Shown: positions 590 to 62,380 of the stretch, piece after piece
How the letters are laid out: every line of letters begins with the position of its first letter
Position numbering within the stretch: the first letter of the stretch is position 1
DNA from: Centipeda periodontii DSM 2778
Lineage (GTDB): Bacteria > Bacillota > Negativicutes > Selenomonadales > Selenomonadaceae
Length of the DNA stretch: 64,000 nucleotides
Reading direction: 5' to 3'
NCBI RefSeq assembly: GCF_000213975.1
Contig: NZ_GL892076.1
Coordinates: 2,377,255 to 2,441,254, forward strand
Notes under the pieces: model-generated
What the model saw: only the letters and a program-made list of their open reading frames with translations
Told to the model about the DNA's origin: nothing
The model's database searches: none
Position numbers and translations under genes: made by a program

Positions 590-1642
590 TCACACATATA
601 TAATATCTCCGCCGCTTGCCTTGCGCAGACGGTTCATGATGGCAAGCCCGAGACCGACCGCACCCGTTCCCTCGGCGAGGAGTGAGGTGACGGGCAGATC
701 GTCGAAGCGGCGGAGCGCGTCATAGAGACAGGCGGCAAAGGCACTGTGATTGCCGCGTGCGCCGCAGTGATACGTATGCTCTGCAGGGACAATCGCACGG
801 AGCGCCGTCAGGGTCTCATTGCTTGCGATCAGCGCGGGGCTCTCCCCCGCCGCTCTGCGCCGAAGAACTTCATCGCGCAGAGCATTTTCGACTGCCGCCC
901 CCGCCCCCACATAGACCGTGAGAGGGGCACGCGGCGCGTAGTGCGTGTATTTCATCCCCGGTGCACGCGGTGCTTCATCCTCCGCTGTGAGTGCGTTATC
1001 CATTCGCACAATAACGTGAGGCAGTTCCATCGCGATCATCTCGCGCGTAACGGCACCGGGGCGGAGGATCGTAAGAGCCCCCTCCTCCGTGCAGTCAACG
1101 ATGGTCGACTCCACGCCGAGGCGACAGCTCCCACCGTCGAGGATGAGCGGGATACGCCCTGCCATATCCTCGTAAACCATCGCTGCCGTCGTCGGACTCG
1201 GACGCCCCGAGGTATTCGCGGATGGCGCGGCGATCGGCACGCCCGCCGCACGGATCAAGTGGCGCGCGATGATGTTGTCGGGACAACGTACGCCGACGGT
1301 TGCGAGCCCGCCCGTCACGATGTCGGGGATGTGCGCGGCTTTCGGCAGGATGACGGTGAGGGGGCCCGGGGCAAATGCGGTGAGGAGATGTGCGGCAATT
1401 GGCGGAACGTCGGAGGCAATCTCATATGCCATTGTAAGATCGGCAATGTGAAGGATGAGCGGATTGTCAGAGGGGCGTCCCTTCGCCTCGTAGATACGCG
1501 TGCACGCCGCCGCATCGAGCCCGTTCGCGCCGAGTCCGTACACGGTTTCCGTCGGAAACGCGACGAGCGCACCGCTGCGAATGAGACCGGCGGCACGCTC
1601 GAAATCTGCGGGCGCAGTCGGACGAAGAATCTCCGTATCCAT
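590..1642 (-). CDS. ywlC: L-threonylcarbamoyladenylate synthase (Sua5/YwlC)
   Basis: The enzyme makes threonylcarbamoyl-AMP from threonine, bicarbonate and ATP, the first step of the universal t6A modification at position 37 of ANN-decoding tRNAs. At 350 residues it is the long Sua5 form: an N-terminal YrdC domain (about residues 8-195; visible FPTETVYGLGANG, AKGRPSDNP and APSANTSGRPSPT, the nucleotide and threonine pocket) plus a C-terminal Sua5 domain. Start ATG 1642 has an ideal AAAGGAGG site. It follows prfA-prmC in the usual Firmicutes order, but copy 2 of the repeat family and a hairpin block separate it from prmC. Its Shine-Dalgarno site begins right at the edge of that insertion, so its transcription may have been altered. 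Confidence 0.95.
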   Translation of the reverse strand: MDTEILRPTAPADFERAAGLIRSGALVAFPTETVYGLGANGLDAAACTRIYEAKGRPSDNPLILHIADLTMAYEIASDVPPIAAHLLTAFAPGPLTVILPKAAHIPDIVTGGLATVGVRCPDNIIARHLIRAAGVPIAAPSANTSGRPSPTTAAMVYEDMAGRIPLILDGGSCRLGVESTIVDCTEEGALTILRPGAVTREMIAMELPHVIVRMDNALTAEDEAPRAPGMKYTHYAPRAPLTVYVGAGAAVENALRDEVLRRRAAGESPALIASNETLTALRAIVPAEHTYHCGARGNHSAFAACLYDALRRFDDLPVTSLLAEGTGAVGLGLAIMNRLRKASGGDIIYV

Positions 1643-1658
1643 CGTGTCCCTCCTTTAA

Positions 1659-1818
1659 GGAATCACTGATAAATTCAGCACCGCCATCTTAGCACATCTT
1701 TTTTGTCCGCTTTTCGTTAGCAAATCCTCCACATAGCTTTGGCTATGCGTCCGGTTTGCTGCCTCAATCGGACGAAAAAATCTGCGCCAATCTGAGGGTC
1801 TATTTTATCAGTGGTTCC
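1659..1818 (-). repeat. MITE-like element, copy 2, with TTAA target duplication
   Basis: The 160-bp element is bounded by GGAATCACTGATAA and TTATCAGTGGTTCC, which are inverted repeats of each other. TTAA stands directly outside each end (1655-1658 and 1819-1822), consistent with a 4-bp target-site duplication. Inside are CATCTTTTTTGTCCG and, inverted, CGGACGAAAAAATCTG, which extend the palindrome, and an apical CATAGC/GCTATG stem. It splits the prmC-sua5 interval and ends immediately before the sua5 ribosome binding site. No transposase is encoded. Confidence 0.85.
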
Positions 1819-1850
1819 TTAATGAAAATTCTATGCCTTTAGGCAGAGAC

Positions 1851-1924: not shown

Positions 1925-2803
1925 CTATTGTGTATACCCCACAACAACTCTCTCAATGCCCGCAAGATCCTTCAATATCTCCGTTCGCACGATGCGCGGA
2001 TGCGCGATTGCAAGTACCGCGACGGCTTCCGCCTCGTCCATCCCGACCTCGACGGCGATCGCACCGCCATCTTTGAGAAGTGTAGGCGCGTCTGCCATCA
2101 GTCGACGATAGATGTCCAGCCCGTCGGCGCCGCCGTCGAGCGCGAGATGCGGCTCATAGCGGCATACCTCCGGCATCAGTCCCGCAATATCCGCCGTTGG
2201 AATATAGGGCGGATTCGAGAGGATCATATCGTAGCTGCGCCCCGCGAGCGGTGCGAGCAGATCGCCCACATGAACGTCGAGGCGCTCCGTCAGCCCGAGT
2301 TTCTCTGCATTTTCCCGTGCGACCGCAGCGGCTGCGGGTGAGATATCGACGACATCCGCACATGCCCCCTCCGTATAATGAATCACGGAGAGCGCAATCG
2401 CACCTGTGCCCGTCCCGATATCGGCAATCCGAAGATCATTCGCACCTCCGTCCGTACGTGCGCGCAGAAAGTCCAGAGCACACTGTACGAGCACCTCGGT
2501 ATCGGGGCGCGGGATGAGCGTATCGCGCGTGACACGAAAGTCGAGCCCCATAAATTCGCGTCGTCCGAGCACATAGGCGAGCGGCACATGCGCCGCTCGC
2601 TCTTTTACATAGGCACGAAACCGCGCGAGTTCATCCGGTTCGAGCGGCTCATCAAAGTGCACATAGAGATACATTCGATCTCTGCCGAGCACAGCGGAGA
2701 GCAGTACCTCCGCGTCGAGGCGCGGACTCTCAATGCCATGCTCGTGAAAGAAATCAGTCGTCCACGTAAGGAGTCGCGCTATCGTCCAAACAGCATCTGC
2801 CAT
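1925..2803 (-). CDS. prmC: Release factor glutamine methyltransferase PrmC
   Basis: PrmC transfers a methyl group from S-adenosylmethionine to the glutamine of the GGQ motif of release factors RF1 and RF2, raising termination efficiency. The 292 residues have the normal length. The N-terminal helical substrate domain is followed by the methyltransferase fold with ADIGTGTGAIALSV (SAM binding) and LSNPPYIP, the NPPY catalytic signature, near residue 195. The ATG overlaps the prfA stop by one base (TGATG), so the enzyme is translationally coupled to its substrate. Confidence 0.96.
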   Translation of the reverse strand: MADAVWTIARLLTWTTDFFHEHGIESPRLDAEVLLSAVLGRDRMYLYVHFDEPLEPDELARFRAYVKERAAHVPLAYVLGRREFMGLDFRVTRDTLIPRPDTEVLVQCALDFLRARTDGGANDLRIADIGTGTGAIALSVIHYTEGACADVVDISPAAAAVARENAEKLGLTERLDVHVGDLLAPLAGRSYDMILSNPPYIPTADIAGLMPEVCRYEPHLALDGGADGLDIYRRLMADAPTLLKDGGAIAVEVGMDEAEAVAVLAIAHPRIVRTEILKDLAGIERVVVGYTQ

Positions 2804-3867
2804 CAGTTCACCTGTTTCAGGCGCTCTGCCTGATCCGCCGTGATGAGTCCCGCGAGAATCTCATCCAGCTCGCCGTCAAGCACGGCGTCGATCTTGTAAA
2901 GCGTCAGACCGATGCGGTGATCGGTCACACGTCCCTGCGGAAAATTGTACGTGCGGATGCGCTCGCTGCGGTCGCCCGAGCCGACCTGACTGCGGCGGTC
3001 AGCGGCGACGGCATCCGCCTGCTCCTGTTGTGCGCGGTCATAGAGGCGCGCACGCAAGACCTTCATTGCCTTTTCGCGGTTCTTGAGCTGCGACTTCTCA
3101 TCCTGACACTGCACGACAATGCCCGTCGGTATGTGCGTGATGCGAATCGCGGTCTCCGTGCGATTGACGTACTGACCGCCCGCGCCTGAGGCGCAGTAGG
3201 TGTCAATGCGCAGCTCGTTCGGATCGATCGTAACCTCGACCTCCTCCGCCTCGGGCAGAACGGCGACCGTGACCGCTGAGGTATGGATACGCCCGCCCGA
3301 CTCGGTGACGGGGATGCGCTGCACGCGATGCGTGCCGCTCTCGTATTTCAGACGACTGTACGCGCCTGCACCGCTGACGAGAAAGGAAATTTCCTTAAAG
3401 CCCCCGATCTCCGTCGGATTGCTGCTGAGGATCTCCGTCCGCCAGCCCTGCCGCTCGGCGTAGCGCGCATACATGCGAAAGAGGCTCGCAGCAAAGAGCG
3501 CCGCCTCCTCCCCACCGACGCCGCCGCGAATCTCGACAATGACATTCTTGTCATCGTTCGGATCGCGCGGCAGAAGTAGGATAGGAAGCTCCTCCGCGAG
3601 CTGATCGCGGCGCGCCTCTGCCTCGGCGATTTCCTCGACGAGCATCTCCTTCATCTCGACATCTGCCTCGGCGAGCATCTCCTTGTCCTCTTCGATGGTG
3701 CGGAGCGCCTGCTTGTACGCATCATACGCCTCAATAATGGGGGTCAGCGCCGCATGCTCACGTGTATAGCGCTGCCACTTCTCCATATCCGCCATCACGT
3801 CCGGATCGCTCAGCAGTGCCTCAAGTTCATGATATTTATCCGCAACGGCGTTCAGTTTGCTGAGCAC
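2803..3867 (-). CDS. prfA: Peptide chain release factor 1
   Basis: RF1 recognises UAA and UAG stop codons and triggers release of the finished protein. The 354 residues are full length. [13 protein letters not shown] carries the GGQ peptidyl-hydrolysis motif, and [15 protein letters not shown] carries the PxT anticodon-like tripeptide (PVT) that marks RF1 rather than RF2. The gene overlaps yqhQ upstream (its start lies inside that gene's 3' end) and prmC downstream by one base, so the three are one transcription unit. Confidence 0.97.
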
Positions 3868-9760: not shown

Positions 9761-9792
9761 GAATCTACCCTCCCAAAAAATAAACGGATAAA

Positions 9793-9953
9793 GGAATCAC
9801 TGATAAATTCAGCCATGCCATCTTGACGCATCTTTTTCGCCCTGCCTGCGTCAGCAAATCCTCCACAGAGCATTCCTCTGTGTCCGGTTTGTTTCCTTGA
9901 CAGGACCAAAAAATCTGCGCCAATCTGACAGACTTCATTTTATCAGTGATTCC
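9793..9953 (-). repeat. MITE-like element, copy 3, with TAAA target duplication
   Basis: The 161-bp element is bounded by GGAATCACTGATAA and TTATCAGTGATTCC, perfect inverted ends. TAAA flanks both sides (9789-9792 and 9954-9957). The apical stem is CACAGAG/CTCTGTG, differing from copy 2 by paired changes. It is inserted in the U-tract of the terminator that ends flagellar cluster A, and just upstream of the amidase gene. Confidence 0.88.
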
Positions 9954-9954
9954 T

Positions 9955-9994
9955 AAAAACCTGCGAAGTATGCTTTTCAGCTGCTTCGCAGGTT
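9955..9994 (-). terminator. Terminator of flagellar cluster A
   Basis: On the minus strand AACCTGCGAAG pairs perfectly with CTTCGCAGGTT around a loop of about 15 bases, followed by a T-run (TTTTTA). It lies 27 bases after the motE stop. Repeat copy 3 abuts the T-run. Confidence 0.85.
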
Positions 9995-61102: not shown

Positions 61103-61171
61103 AAAAAAATTTCGCCCTCTTACGAAAGAATTTCAAATCCATCAAAAATCTATTCGTAAAGAGGGCGAAAT
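61103..61171 (-). terminator. Long-stem terminator downstream of ilvE
   Basis: On the minus strand TTTCGCCCTCTTTACGAA pairs with TTCGTAAGAGGGCGAAA (one bulged base) around a loop of about 27 bases, followed by seven T. Repeat copy 4 is inserted between this hairpin and the ilvE stop. Confidence 0.85.
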
Positions 61172-61175
61172 TATA

Positions 61176-61311
61176 GGAATCACTGATAAGCAGATTTTTT
61201 GTCCTGCCAAGGAGGCAAACCGGACGCAGGATGCTCTGTGGACGATTTGCAGGCGTTGTGCGGGCAAAAAAGATGCGCTAAGATGGCGGTGCTGAACTTA
61301 TCAGTGGTTCC
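61176..61311 (+). repeat. MITE-like element, copy 4 (short), with TATA target duplication
   Basis: The 136-bp element is bounded by GGAATCACTGATAA and TTATCAGTGGTTCC. TATA lies directly outside each end (61172-61175 and 61312-61315). It lacks about 25 bases near the left end relative to the other copies. Its orientation matches copy 1. It lies between the ilvE stop and the ilvE terminator. Confidence 0.87.
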
Positions 61312-61322
61312 TATAAATTACA

Positions 61323-62348
61323 TCAACAAATCCTGCGGATCCAGCCTTCGGGAGCCTCGATCGTCCCGAGCTGCATGCCGCGCAGGGTATCATAGAGTTT
61401 TTGCAGGACAGGCCCCATATGCTCCATGCCGCTCGGCAGCGCAATCACCTTGTCGCTATGCGTCACGGAACCGACCGGTGAGATCACCGCCGCCGTACCG
61501 CAGAGCCCCGCCTCCGCAAAATCGGAAAGCTCATCAAACGCCACAGGGCGCTCCTCCACCCTCATCCCGAGGATGTGTTCGGCGATATGCACAAGAGAAC
61601 GCCGCGTGATCGAGGGCAGAATGGACGGCGACTTCGGTGTCACAATCGTGCCGTCCTTCGTCACAAACAGGAAATTCGCGCCGCCCGTCTCCTCGATATG
61701 TGTGCGTGTCGCCGCGTCGAGGAACATATTCTCATCGAAGCCCGCCGCATGCGCCGCCATATAGGCATGCAGGCTCATCGCGTAGTTCAGCCCCGCCTTG
61801 ATGTGCCCTGTCCCGTGCGGCGCCGCACGGTCAAAACTGCTCACACAGAGTCGCACGGGCTTCGCGCCGCCCTTAAAATAAGGTCCGACCGGCGTTGCAA
61901 AGAGCCGGAACTGATACGCATCCGCCGGTTTTACCCCGATCACCTCACCTGTCGCGAAAATCAGAGGACGCAGGTAAAGCGACGCATCCGATCCGTACGG
62001 CGGCACATAGTCGCGATTCGCCGTGACCACCGCGTCCACAGCCGCAAGGAAACGTTCCCTCGGGAACGATGGCATCTCAAGATACGCAGCCGAGTGATAC
62101 ATGCGCTCCGCGTTGAGATCAGGACGGAACGTCACAATATGTCCATCCACCGTTTCATACGCCTTCAGTCCTTCAAAGACCTCCTGACAGTAGTGCAGAA
62201 TCCCGGCGCACTCACTGATCGTAACCGTTGCATCGGACGAAAGTCCACCCTCATCCCACGCTCCATTCGCATAGTTCGCCACATAGCGCTGCGGCAGGGA
62301 ACGATATGCAAACCCCAAATTTCCCCAGTCAATATCCGCCTTTGCCAT
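61323..62348 (-). CDS. ilvE: Branched-chain amino acid aminotransferase IlvE
   Basis: IlvE is a PLP enzyme for the last step of leucine, isoleucine and valine synthesis. GTGHIKAGLNYAMSL holds the PLP-binding Lys, HIEETGGANFLFV and GTAAVISPVGSV the cofactor and phosphate contacts. I chose ATG 62348 (GAGG eight bases upstream), about 341 residues, the long class IV form. It has its own strong promoter. Confidence 0.95.
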   Translation of the reverse strand: MAKADIDWGNLGFAYRSLPQRYVANYANGAWDEGGLSSDATVTISECAGILHYCQEVFEGLKAYETVDGHIVTFRPDLNAERMYHSAAYLEMPSFPRERFLAAVDAVVTANRDYVPPYGSDASLYLRPLIFATGEVIGVKPADAYQFRLFATPVGPYFKGGAKPVRLCVSSFDRAAPHGTGHIKAGLNYAMSLHAYMAAHAAGFDENMFLDAATRTHIEETGGANFLFVTKDGTIVTPKSPSILPSITRRSLVHIAEHILGMRVEERPVAFDELSDFAEAGLCGTAAVISPVGSVTHSDKVIALPSGMEHMGPVLQKLYDTLRGMQLGTIEAPEGWIRRIC

Positions 62349-62380
62349 AATATGCGCCTCTTTCAAATAAAATTTCCCCT

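Follow-up and report, generated by a model that had tools for sequence, protein, structure and literature searches.

A short MITE-like repeat with IS5-family ends in Centipeda periodontii, and evidence for a structured RNA in its interior across the Negativicutes

What are the four similar short repeats that lie in a 64,000-nucleotide stretch of the genome of Centipeda periodontii DSM 2778 (the whole stretch analysed, hereafter the window, numbered from its first base), and by what process did they arrive there? An earlier note on this DNA had proposed that three of them are flanked by 4-bp, A/T-only target duplications and that the remaining one, copy 1, had lost its right end. Direct reading confirmed exact 4-bp flanks at copy 2 (1659-1818, 160 bp; TTAA at 1655-1658 and 1819-1822), copy 3 (9793-9953, 161 bp; TAAA at 9789-9792 and 9954-9957), and copy 4 (61176-61311, 136 bp, internally shortened in the left arm; TATA at 61172-61175 and 61312-61315). 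The statement about copy 1 was wrong; this element spans 420-577 (158 bp), its right end is present with a terminal T where the other copies have C, and its flanks, TTAG (416-419) and GTAG (578-581), differ by one mismatch. The better-folding strand of the repeat, denoted the A strand, is the plus strand at copy 1 and, by eye, at copy 4, and the minus strand at copies 2 and 3.

The left duplication of copy 2 directly adjoins AGGAGG, a Shine-Dalgarno-like sequence (minus strand, 1654-1649) of the gene at 590-1642 (minus strand), which we take from protein reading to be sua5/ywlC-like; the other gene around this copy (1925-2803, minus strand) is presumably prmC-like. The approximately 100 bp that adjoin copy 2 (1823-1921) contain a CCACGCTTCGCGTGG palindrome together with an AGGAGG-containing inverted repeat, and their 13-base core has one occurrence in the own-genome stretches examined. 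Copy 4 is positioned just past the stop of the gene at 61323-62366 (minus strand), presumably ilvE-like. Beside it, at 61110-61171, is a strong inverted repeat of the TTTCGCCCTCTTACGAAAG...CTTTCGTAAAGAGGGCGAAA type, which is found in the same place with altered sequence in several relatives and is perhaps a terminator downstream of ilvE. The first 319 bases of the window hold a minus-strand gene, with its start read by eye as MTATYGDIIYVQRIGYRHFGVYVG, that may encode an LRAT-type or NlpC/P60-like protein. Judged by a protein neighbouring the element, the closest named genomes are those of oral Selenomonas (97% identity to S. massiliensis).

The end sequence of the repeat occurs 127 times in forward and 122 times in reverse orientation in the 2.76-Mb host genome (up to one mismatch; the reversed control gave 0), and the host carries about 125 copies. 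At 160 bp each, these occupy roughly 0.7% of the genome. From stretches around host copies, 97 distinct end pairs were recovered, of which 85 enclose 158-163 bp; copy 1 falls outside the 97 because its right end has three mismatches to the search pattern. Each element is short and lacks a transposase gene, approximately 160 bp being too small to encode one, and is bounded by terminal inverted repeats of about 15 bp (GGAANCRCTGATAAA), the arms of which vary together between genera. The 12 elements outside 150-170 bp were left out before duplications were tested, and one outlier and three duplicate rows were left out of one further comparison. Identical 4-bp flanks were found at 44 of the 85 full-length copies, where re-pairing of left and right flanks among copies would give 4.65, and the flank check over genomic copies thereby bore out the duplication that the earlier note had proposed. 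Values for other lengths among the same copies were 6 versus 3.56 (2 bp), 7 versus 4.95 (3 bp), and 4 versus 0.29 (5 bp); given this last excess, a few host copies may carry 5-bp duplications.

By sequence, the 44 exact duplications comprise TTAA (7), CTAG (6), TATA (5), CTAA (4), TTTA (4), TAAA (4), and others in lower number; 23 are A/T-only and 19 fit YTAR, two classes that overlap. The description 'A/T-only' consequently holds at copies 2, 3, and 4 and fails genome-wide, having been an effect of the small sample. The target instead leans towards YTAR, which is fitted by 34 left and 32 right flanks of the 85 copies, versus 1 and 3 of the four-mers situated 6 bp further out; a 4-bp YTAR target is the rule for the IS5 group. 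In the other 41 copies the two 4-bp flanks are not identical. At the mean element divergence of 9.5%, decay predicts 48% exact duplications, and 52% were seen; no link was detected among the 85 copies between exactness of the duplication and closeness to the nearest copy (p=0.83). Seven of the 97 elements are shorter than 100 bp, all different from one another and six of them with exact duplications. The very short derivatives of 41-73 bp, each different and composed of approximately the two ends only between exact 4-bp duplications, are located at L016 1501-1544, L080 1086-1142, L092 1057-1111, L093 1067-1107, L098 1020-1092, and L109 1007-1062. With respect to genes, as called roughly by codon score, none of the 85 full-length copies is wholly inside one; the copies lie at a median of about 50 bp from a called start or stop, some of them overlapping called ends, and orientation relative to tandem genes is even (29:28). 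Gene orientation was considered as a sign of mRNA function and rejected on this count.

Sites of insertion were compared with orthologous stretches from named Selenomonas genomes for copies 2, 3, and 4, the left flank of copy 1 not being alignable to relatives. At the site of copy 3, S. infelix (L149) reads ...ATAAACGGATAAA-AACCTGCG..., with a single TAAA and no element, and so provides the exact empty site for which the earlier note had called. These bases are therefore target and lie outside the element, contrary to a possibility raised in that note that the A/T bases might belong to the element itself. The element is likewise absent from this site, with local differences, in S. massiliensis (L148), F0473 (L155), and S. 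artemidis (L156). Oral taxon 892 (L151 13439-13470, locus reverse complement) has here a perfect 32-bp palindrome, the two ends joined, between GAAA and TAAA, as would result from loss of the interior at the site, and S. noxia (L152) has an apparent short remnant between TAAA repeats. Among the window sites compared, same-place remnants in relatives were seen only at copy 3. At the site of copy 2, the element is absent from six related loci (L148, L149, L151-L154), five of which also lack the approximately 100 bp beside it, and L155 and L156 carry there some 400 bp of different sequence with no end-like sites; this site is unoccupied in the relatives and is not a clean empty site. No end-like sequence was present within the 330 bp examined at the copy 4 site in 12 of 13 congeneric genomes, and the thirteenth (G003) has a different, 56-bp derivative. 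The unoccupied sites, the differing flanks, and the enrichment of 4-bp duplications support the proposal of independent transposition rather than segmental duplication.

A candidate for the source of transposase is an IS5-family element of Selenomonas of about 1.25 kb, the ends of which are near-identical to those of the repeat. The part of its transposase that was searched matched NF033581 at 270.7 bits (cut-off 140), in addition to PF01609 and PF05598, and the frame is uninterrupted within the matched part in G001, G006, G010, and G011. Six copies of this IS were examined; all have GGAANCRCTGATAAA-type ends (e.g., GGAATCACTGATAAA and GGAAACGCTGATAAA), with one end reading CTGAAAAA in four of them, and 11 of their 12 flanks fit YTAR, an exact duplication being found at only one of the six. 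By eye, the sequence common to the repeat and the IS is confined to the terminal 15-18 bp, and the hairpin interior of the repeat is absent from the IS. The host has three IS5-family remains with ends of the same kind, none provably complete: L124 is truncated and frameshifted, L123 is interrupted, and L122, the best preserved (1272-2707 region), is readable in part only. The interruption in L123 is a copy of the repeat (2854-3013) inserted in the transposase gene with TTAA on both sides. In G031, another repeat copy (L285, about 2270-2428) was seen by eye within or just beside an IS5-family transposase gene; on more than one occasion, it seems, the repeat has inserted into its probable helper.

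Within the genus, the IS was detected in 6 of 14 genomes (E≤1e-40), the host among them, and elsewhere in the family in 5 of 15 carriers (E≤1e-8). Among seven more distant carriers, six had no relative of the transposase at E≤1e-10 and the seventh had one weak match (30% identity). A proposal that the terminal inverted repeats track the local IS was not shown; the ends of the IS5 copy in G090 (L284, read by eye as CTTAA|GGAAACAATGATTTAATC...GATTAAATCAGCATTCC|TTAG) differ from those of the two elements examined in that genome. Judged from these comparisons, the repeat works like a miniature inverted-repeat transposable element (MITE) with ends that match an IS5-family element in Selenomonas, where mobilisation by IS5 is likely; elsewhere such mobilisation is unproven.

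How far does the repeat extend beyond its host? By DNA similarity, it was found in the host and in every other genome of the genus, 14 in total (E≤0.001; G001 and G009 with one weak match each), and in 27 of 151 genomes and 8 of 30 genera of the family (E≤1e-8). A covariance model was then built from an alignment (A1) of 55 copies, of which 12 belong to the host, nine to other Selenomonas, and 34 to other genera (11 genomes); three of 58 references (L251, L254, L269) were left out of A1, and three of 40 other-genus loci (L275, L276, L281) had been dropped at an earlier step. The model matched 107 of 380 genomes of the class Negativicutes, in 30 of 102 genera (E≤1e-4; host and model source genomes included). 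Matches per genome (E≤1e-3) numbered 25, 18, and 29 in three genomes of family f2, 45 and 40 in two of f6, and 72 and 122 in two of f17, figures that may exceed true copy numbers given that a palindrome can match on both strands. Distinct places among the matches listed amounted to at least 63 in G244, 25 in G242, 24 in G156, 19 in G206, 3 in G214, and 2 in G217. The ends in distant families differ (e.g., GGAACCGCTGATTAA) yet are inverted repeats, several with CTAG or TTAA on both sides; CTAG flanks on both sides in other families are exemplified by L328, L329, and L341. Model matches in families f3, f8, f19, f25, and f33 were weak or few and are not counted as support.

In a control of 80 named loci (approximately 3-17 kb), six were matched: L153, L178, L181, and L162 strongly, L154 less so, and L170 marginally; the Clostridia- and Tissierellia-type loci L206-L227 among these gave no model match. 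Phage and plasmid collections also yielded no match at E≤1e-5 in either. Searches of Rfam 15 at gathering score returned no match at the four copies, the only match in the window being one tRNA, and two weak matches on six other-genus loci, one of which overlaps the element by no more than 5 bases while the rest of both lies outside it.

The interior of the repeat varies in the manner of a paired structure. The hairpin predicted from A1 has 50 pairs, with 97.2% of cells paired compared to 87.1% in shuffles, and 32 of the 50 pairs have changed on both sides compared to 18.3 in shuffles. Double-change cells numbered 253 against 70 shuffled, with none of 500 shuffles as high, and sliding the partner by one to three columns reduced pairing to 39-45%. 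A second alignment (A3) of more distant genomes was made with 22 of 35 model matches, drawn from families f2, f6, and f17 together with one unassigned genome; opposite-strand repeats and matches without recognisable ends were left out, and L335 was kept. Here double-change cells numbered 196, and shuffles averaged 53.5 and reached at most 74. As expected of any palindrome, the fold of the complementary strand also covaries beyond shuffles (153 versus 39.6, and 142 versus 41.3), and all of these cells come from related sequences rather than independent events, such that the counts are not probabilities.

What distinguishes the strands is the nature of their mismatches. With pairings chosen blind to strand, A1 has 230 G·T cells against 37 A·C, over 29 versus 10 pairs, and A3 has 89 against 25, over 20 versus 7 pairs; among the interior pairs of A1 with two or more such cells, 17 lean to G·T and nine to A·C. 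The host copies show 502 G·T against 265 A·C cells, with G·T in excess in 69 of 85 elements, the reverse in six, and ties in 10, whereas strand composition alone predicts a ratio of 1.2. The count per element in other genomes used 28 of the 35 model matches, six of these without an assigned genome. G·T exceeded A·C in 16 of 19 assigned genomes, which are not all independent given that the copies of G042 and G063 are identical; the order was reversed in G044, G217, and, slightly, G214, and was near even in G336. The six loci without an assigned genome gave 32 G·T to 30 A·C. Two comparisons of consensus folds gave -54.4 kcal/mol for the A strand and -16.2 kcal/mol for its complement, the B strand, and -46.7 and -24.7 kcal/mol, respectively. 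Taken together, these strand differences favour selection acting on an A-strand RNA, since palindromes at the level of DNA have no preferred strand; the main alternative is unequal mutation between strands. Several unpaired positions in the 55 copies of A1 are nearly invariant, notably GAGGA at columns 96-100 and two facing GA dinucleotides at columns 31-32 and 137-138. Of the 22 copies in A3, by contrast, only 6 have CAGATT, 6 have AAGATG, and 3 have GAGGA. The use of internal-loop bases as class-wide evidence for RNA was withdrawn because they are not kept in A3, and for the same reason they would support a fixed RNA shape within the family only.

Of the explanations that could account for these observations, the one considered probable is that the repeat is a non-autonomous transposon of about 160 bp, mobilised in trans by an IS5-type transposase, with a folded RNA of the A strand that aids its own spread or tolerance. 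The strongest competitor is a plain MITE. Such a DNA parasite, moved by a transposase of the IS5 family, would have no role for RNA; its hairpin would be kept by processes acting on DNA, such as cruciform formation or template switching between the arms of the quasi-palindrome, and the asymmetry would arise from unequal mutation. Every transposon feature is present as it would require, template switching between arms can produce paired changes too, gene orientation is even, and distant families do not retain the internal-loop bases. Processes acting on DNA do not, however, distinguish the strands, and an excess of G·T over A·C is nonetheless seen in 16 of the 19 other genomes with an assignment and in 69 of the 85 copies in the host, the lean recurs pair by pair in two alignments, and the A strand has by far the better consensus fold. 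A plain MITE is accordingly judged rather unlikely.

Alternatively, the repeats could be regulatory hairpins domesticated by the host, as terminators or mRNA-processing sites, and spread by recombination instead of transposition. Their RNA-like structure and their position, with no full-length copy wholly inside a called gene and a median of some 50 bp to a start or stop by rough calls, would suit such a function, but the 4-bp duplications and the exact empty site largely refute it; the copy nested in an IS5 gene, the want of any orientation preference, and the restriction of same-place remnants to copy 3 among the window sites tested also count against it, leaving it very improbable. That the four similar copies in one window stem from segmental duplication, or from faulty assembly of a single repeat region, is refuted by the approximately 125 dispersed copies, by their different flanks and duplications, and by the matches in all 14 genomes of the genus (E≤0.001, host included; two with a single weak match), and has next to no likelihood.

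The transposon with a folded RNA, the preferred reading, would operate as follows. A DDE transposase of the IS5 kind would cut at the ends of the element, mobilising it in trans, and insert it with a 4-base stagger. The A strand would be transcribed from source copies, and the resulting folded RNA would help the element to spread or to be tolerated, for example through RNase III processing of transcripts or through an action on transposition. Because orientation to neighbouring genes is even (29:28), a role in mRNA at each site is unlikely to explain the one-stranded fold, and the RNA would more plausibly serve the element itself. Selection would then bear on source copies and not on each resident copy; those that produce the RNA may have an advantage in spreading or may leave insertions that are more readily tolerated. 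The maintenance of 158-163 bp in 85 of 97 elements, with short derivatives that are all different, would be in keeping with selection on source copies.

Repeats of comparable habit are known in other bacteria, among them the Correia elements of Neisseria, which are associated with a TA duplication, and ERIC, an imperfect palindrome. MITEs related to the IS5 family resemble the present repeat in being short, intergenic, and multicopy, with a small target duplication and terminal inverted repeats common to an IS5-family element; in contrast, the interior described here is kept with compensatory change across genera and families, and by eye nothing beyond the terminal 15-18 bp is common with the IS. 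Correia elements are likewise intergenic, hairpin-forming, and present in over 120 copies, with reported cleavage by RNase III, but they are 204 bp long (PMC10969869); the repeat studied here extends over several families within a single class. ERIC resembles the repeat in its distribution across related families, with copy number strongly dependent on taxon, and differs in its hosts, the Enterobacteriaceae and Vibrionaceae (PMC10969869); both likenesses are of behaviour. The MITE-like bcr1-bcr3 repeats, reported to be confined to the Bacillus cereus group and also alike in behaviour, are often transcribed, and bcr1 reaches up to 130 copies (PMC6542083, PMC3446304); their frequent location in UTRs or in spacers within operons provides a precedent for transcribed hairpins that are mobile. 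IStrons are also mobile DNA elements carrying a structured RNA, in their case a group I intron joined to an IS (PMC4227781).

The literature searches made, on MITEs in Selenomonas or Negativicutes, MITEs with structured RNA and covariation, IS5-related MITEs and their target duplications, and IS5 with YTAR, together with one of broader scope, showed nothing on this repeat among the papers listed, and a term search of PMC12306157, PMC2267715, and PMC8040213 found none of the Negativicutes names entered. Nor was a precedent encountered in the MITE literature searched for the combination of class-wide range and strand-specific covariation.

On a wider view, held tentatively and with less than even confidence, the repeat may belong to a class-wide transposon family, old within the Negativicutes, in which a structured noncoding RNA is the cargo while ends and transposase partners change between lineages; the one-stranded fold would be kept by selection, the RNA being needed for propagation or toleration of the element. 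The usual picture of a bacterial MITE is of two ends around an expendable filling, to which a filling that evolves like a folded RNA across a class stands in contrast. The many copies offer a natural data set for exploring whether functional RNAs travel on small transposons and what such RNAs do, and a single covariance model could annotate the repeat across the class.
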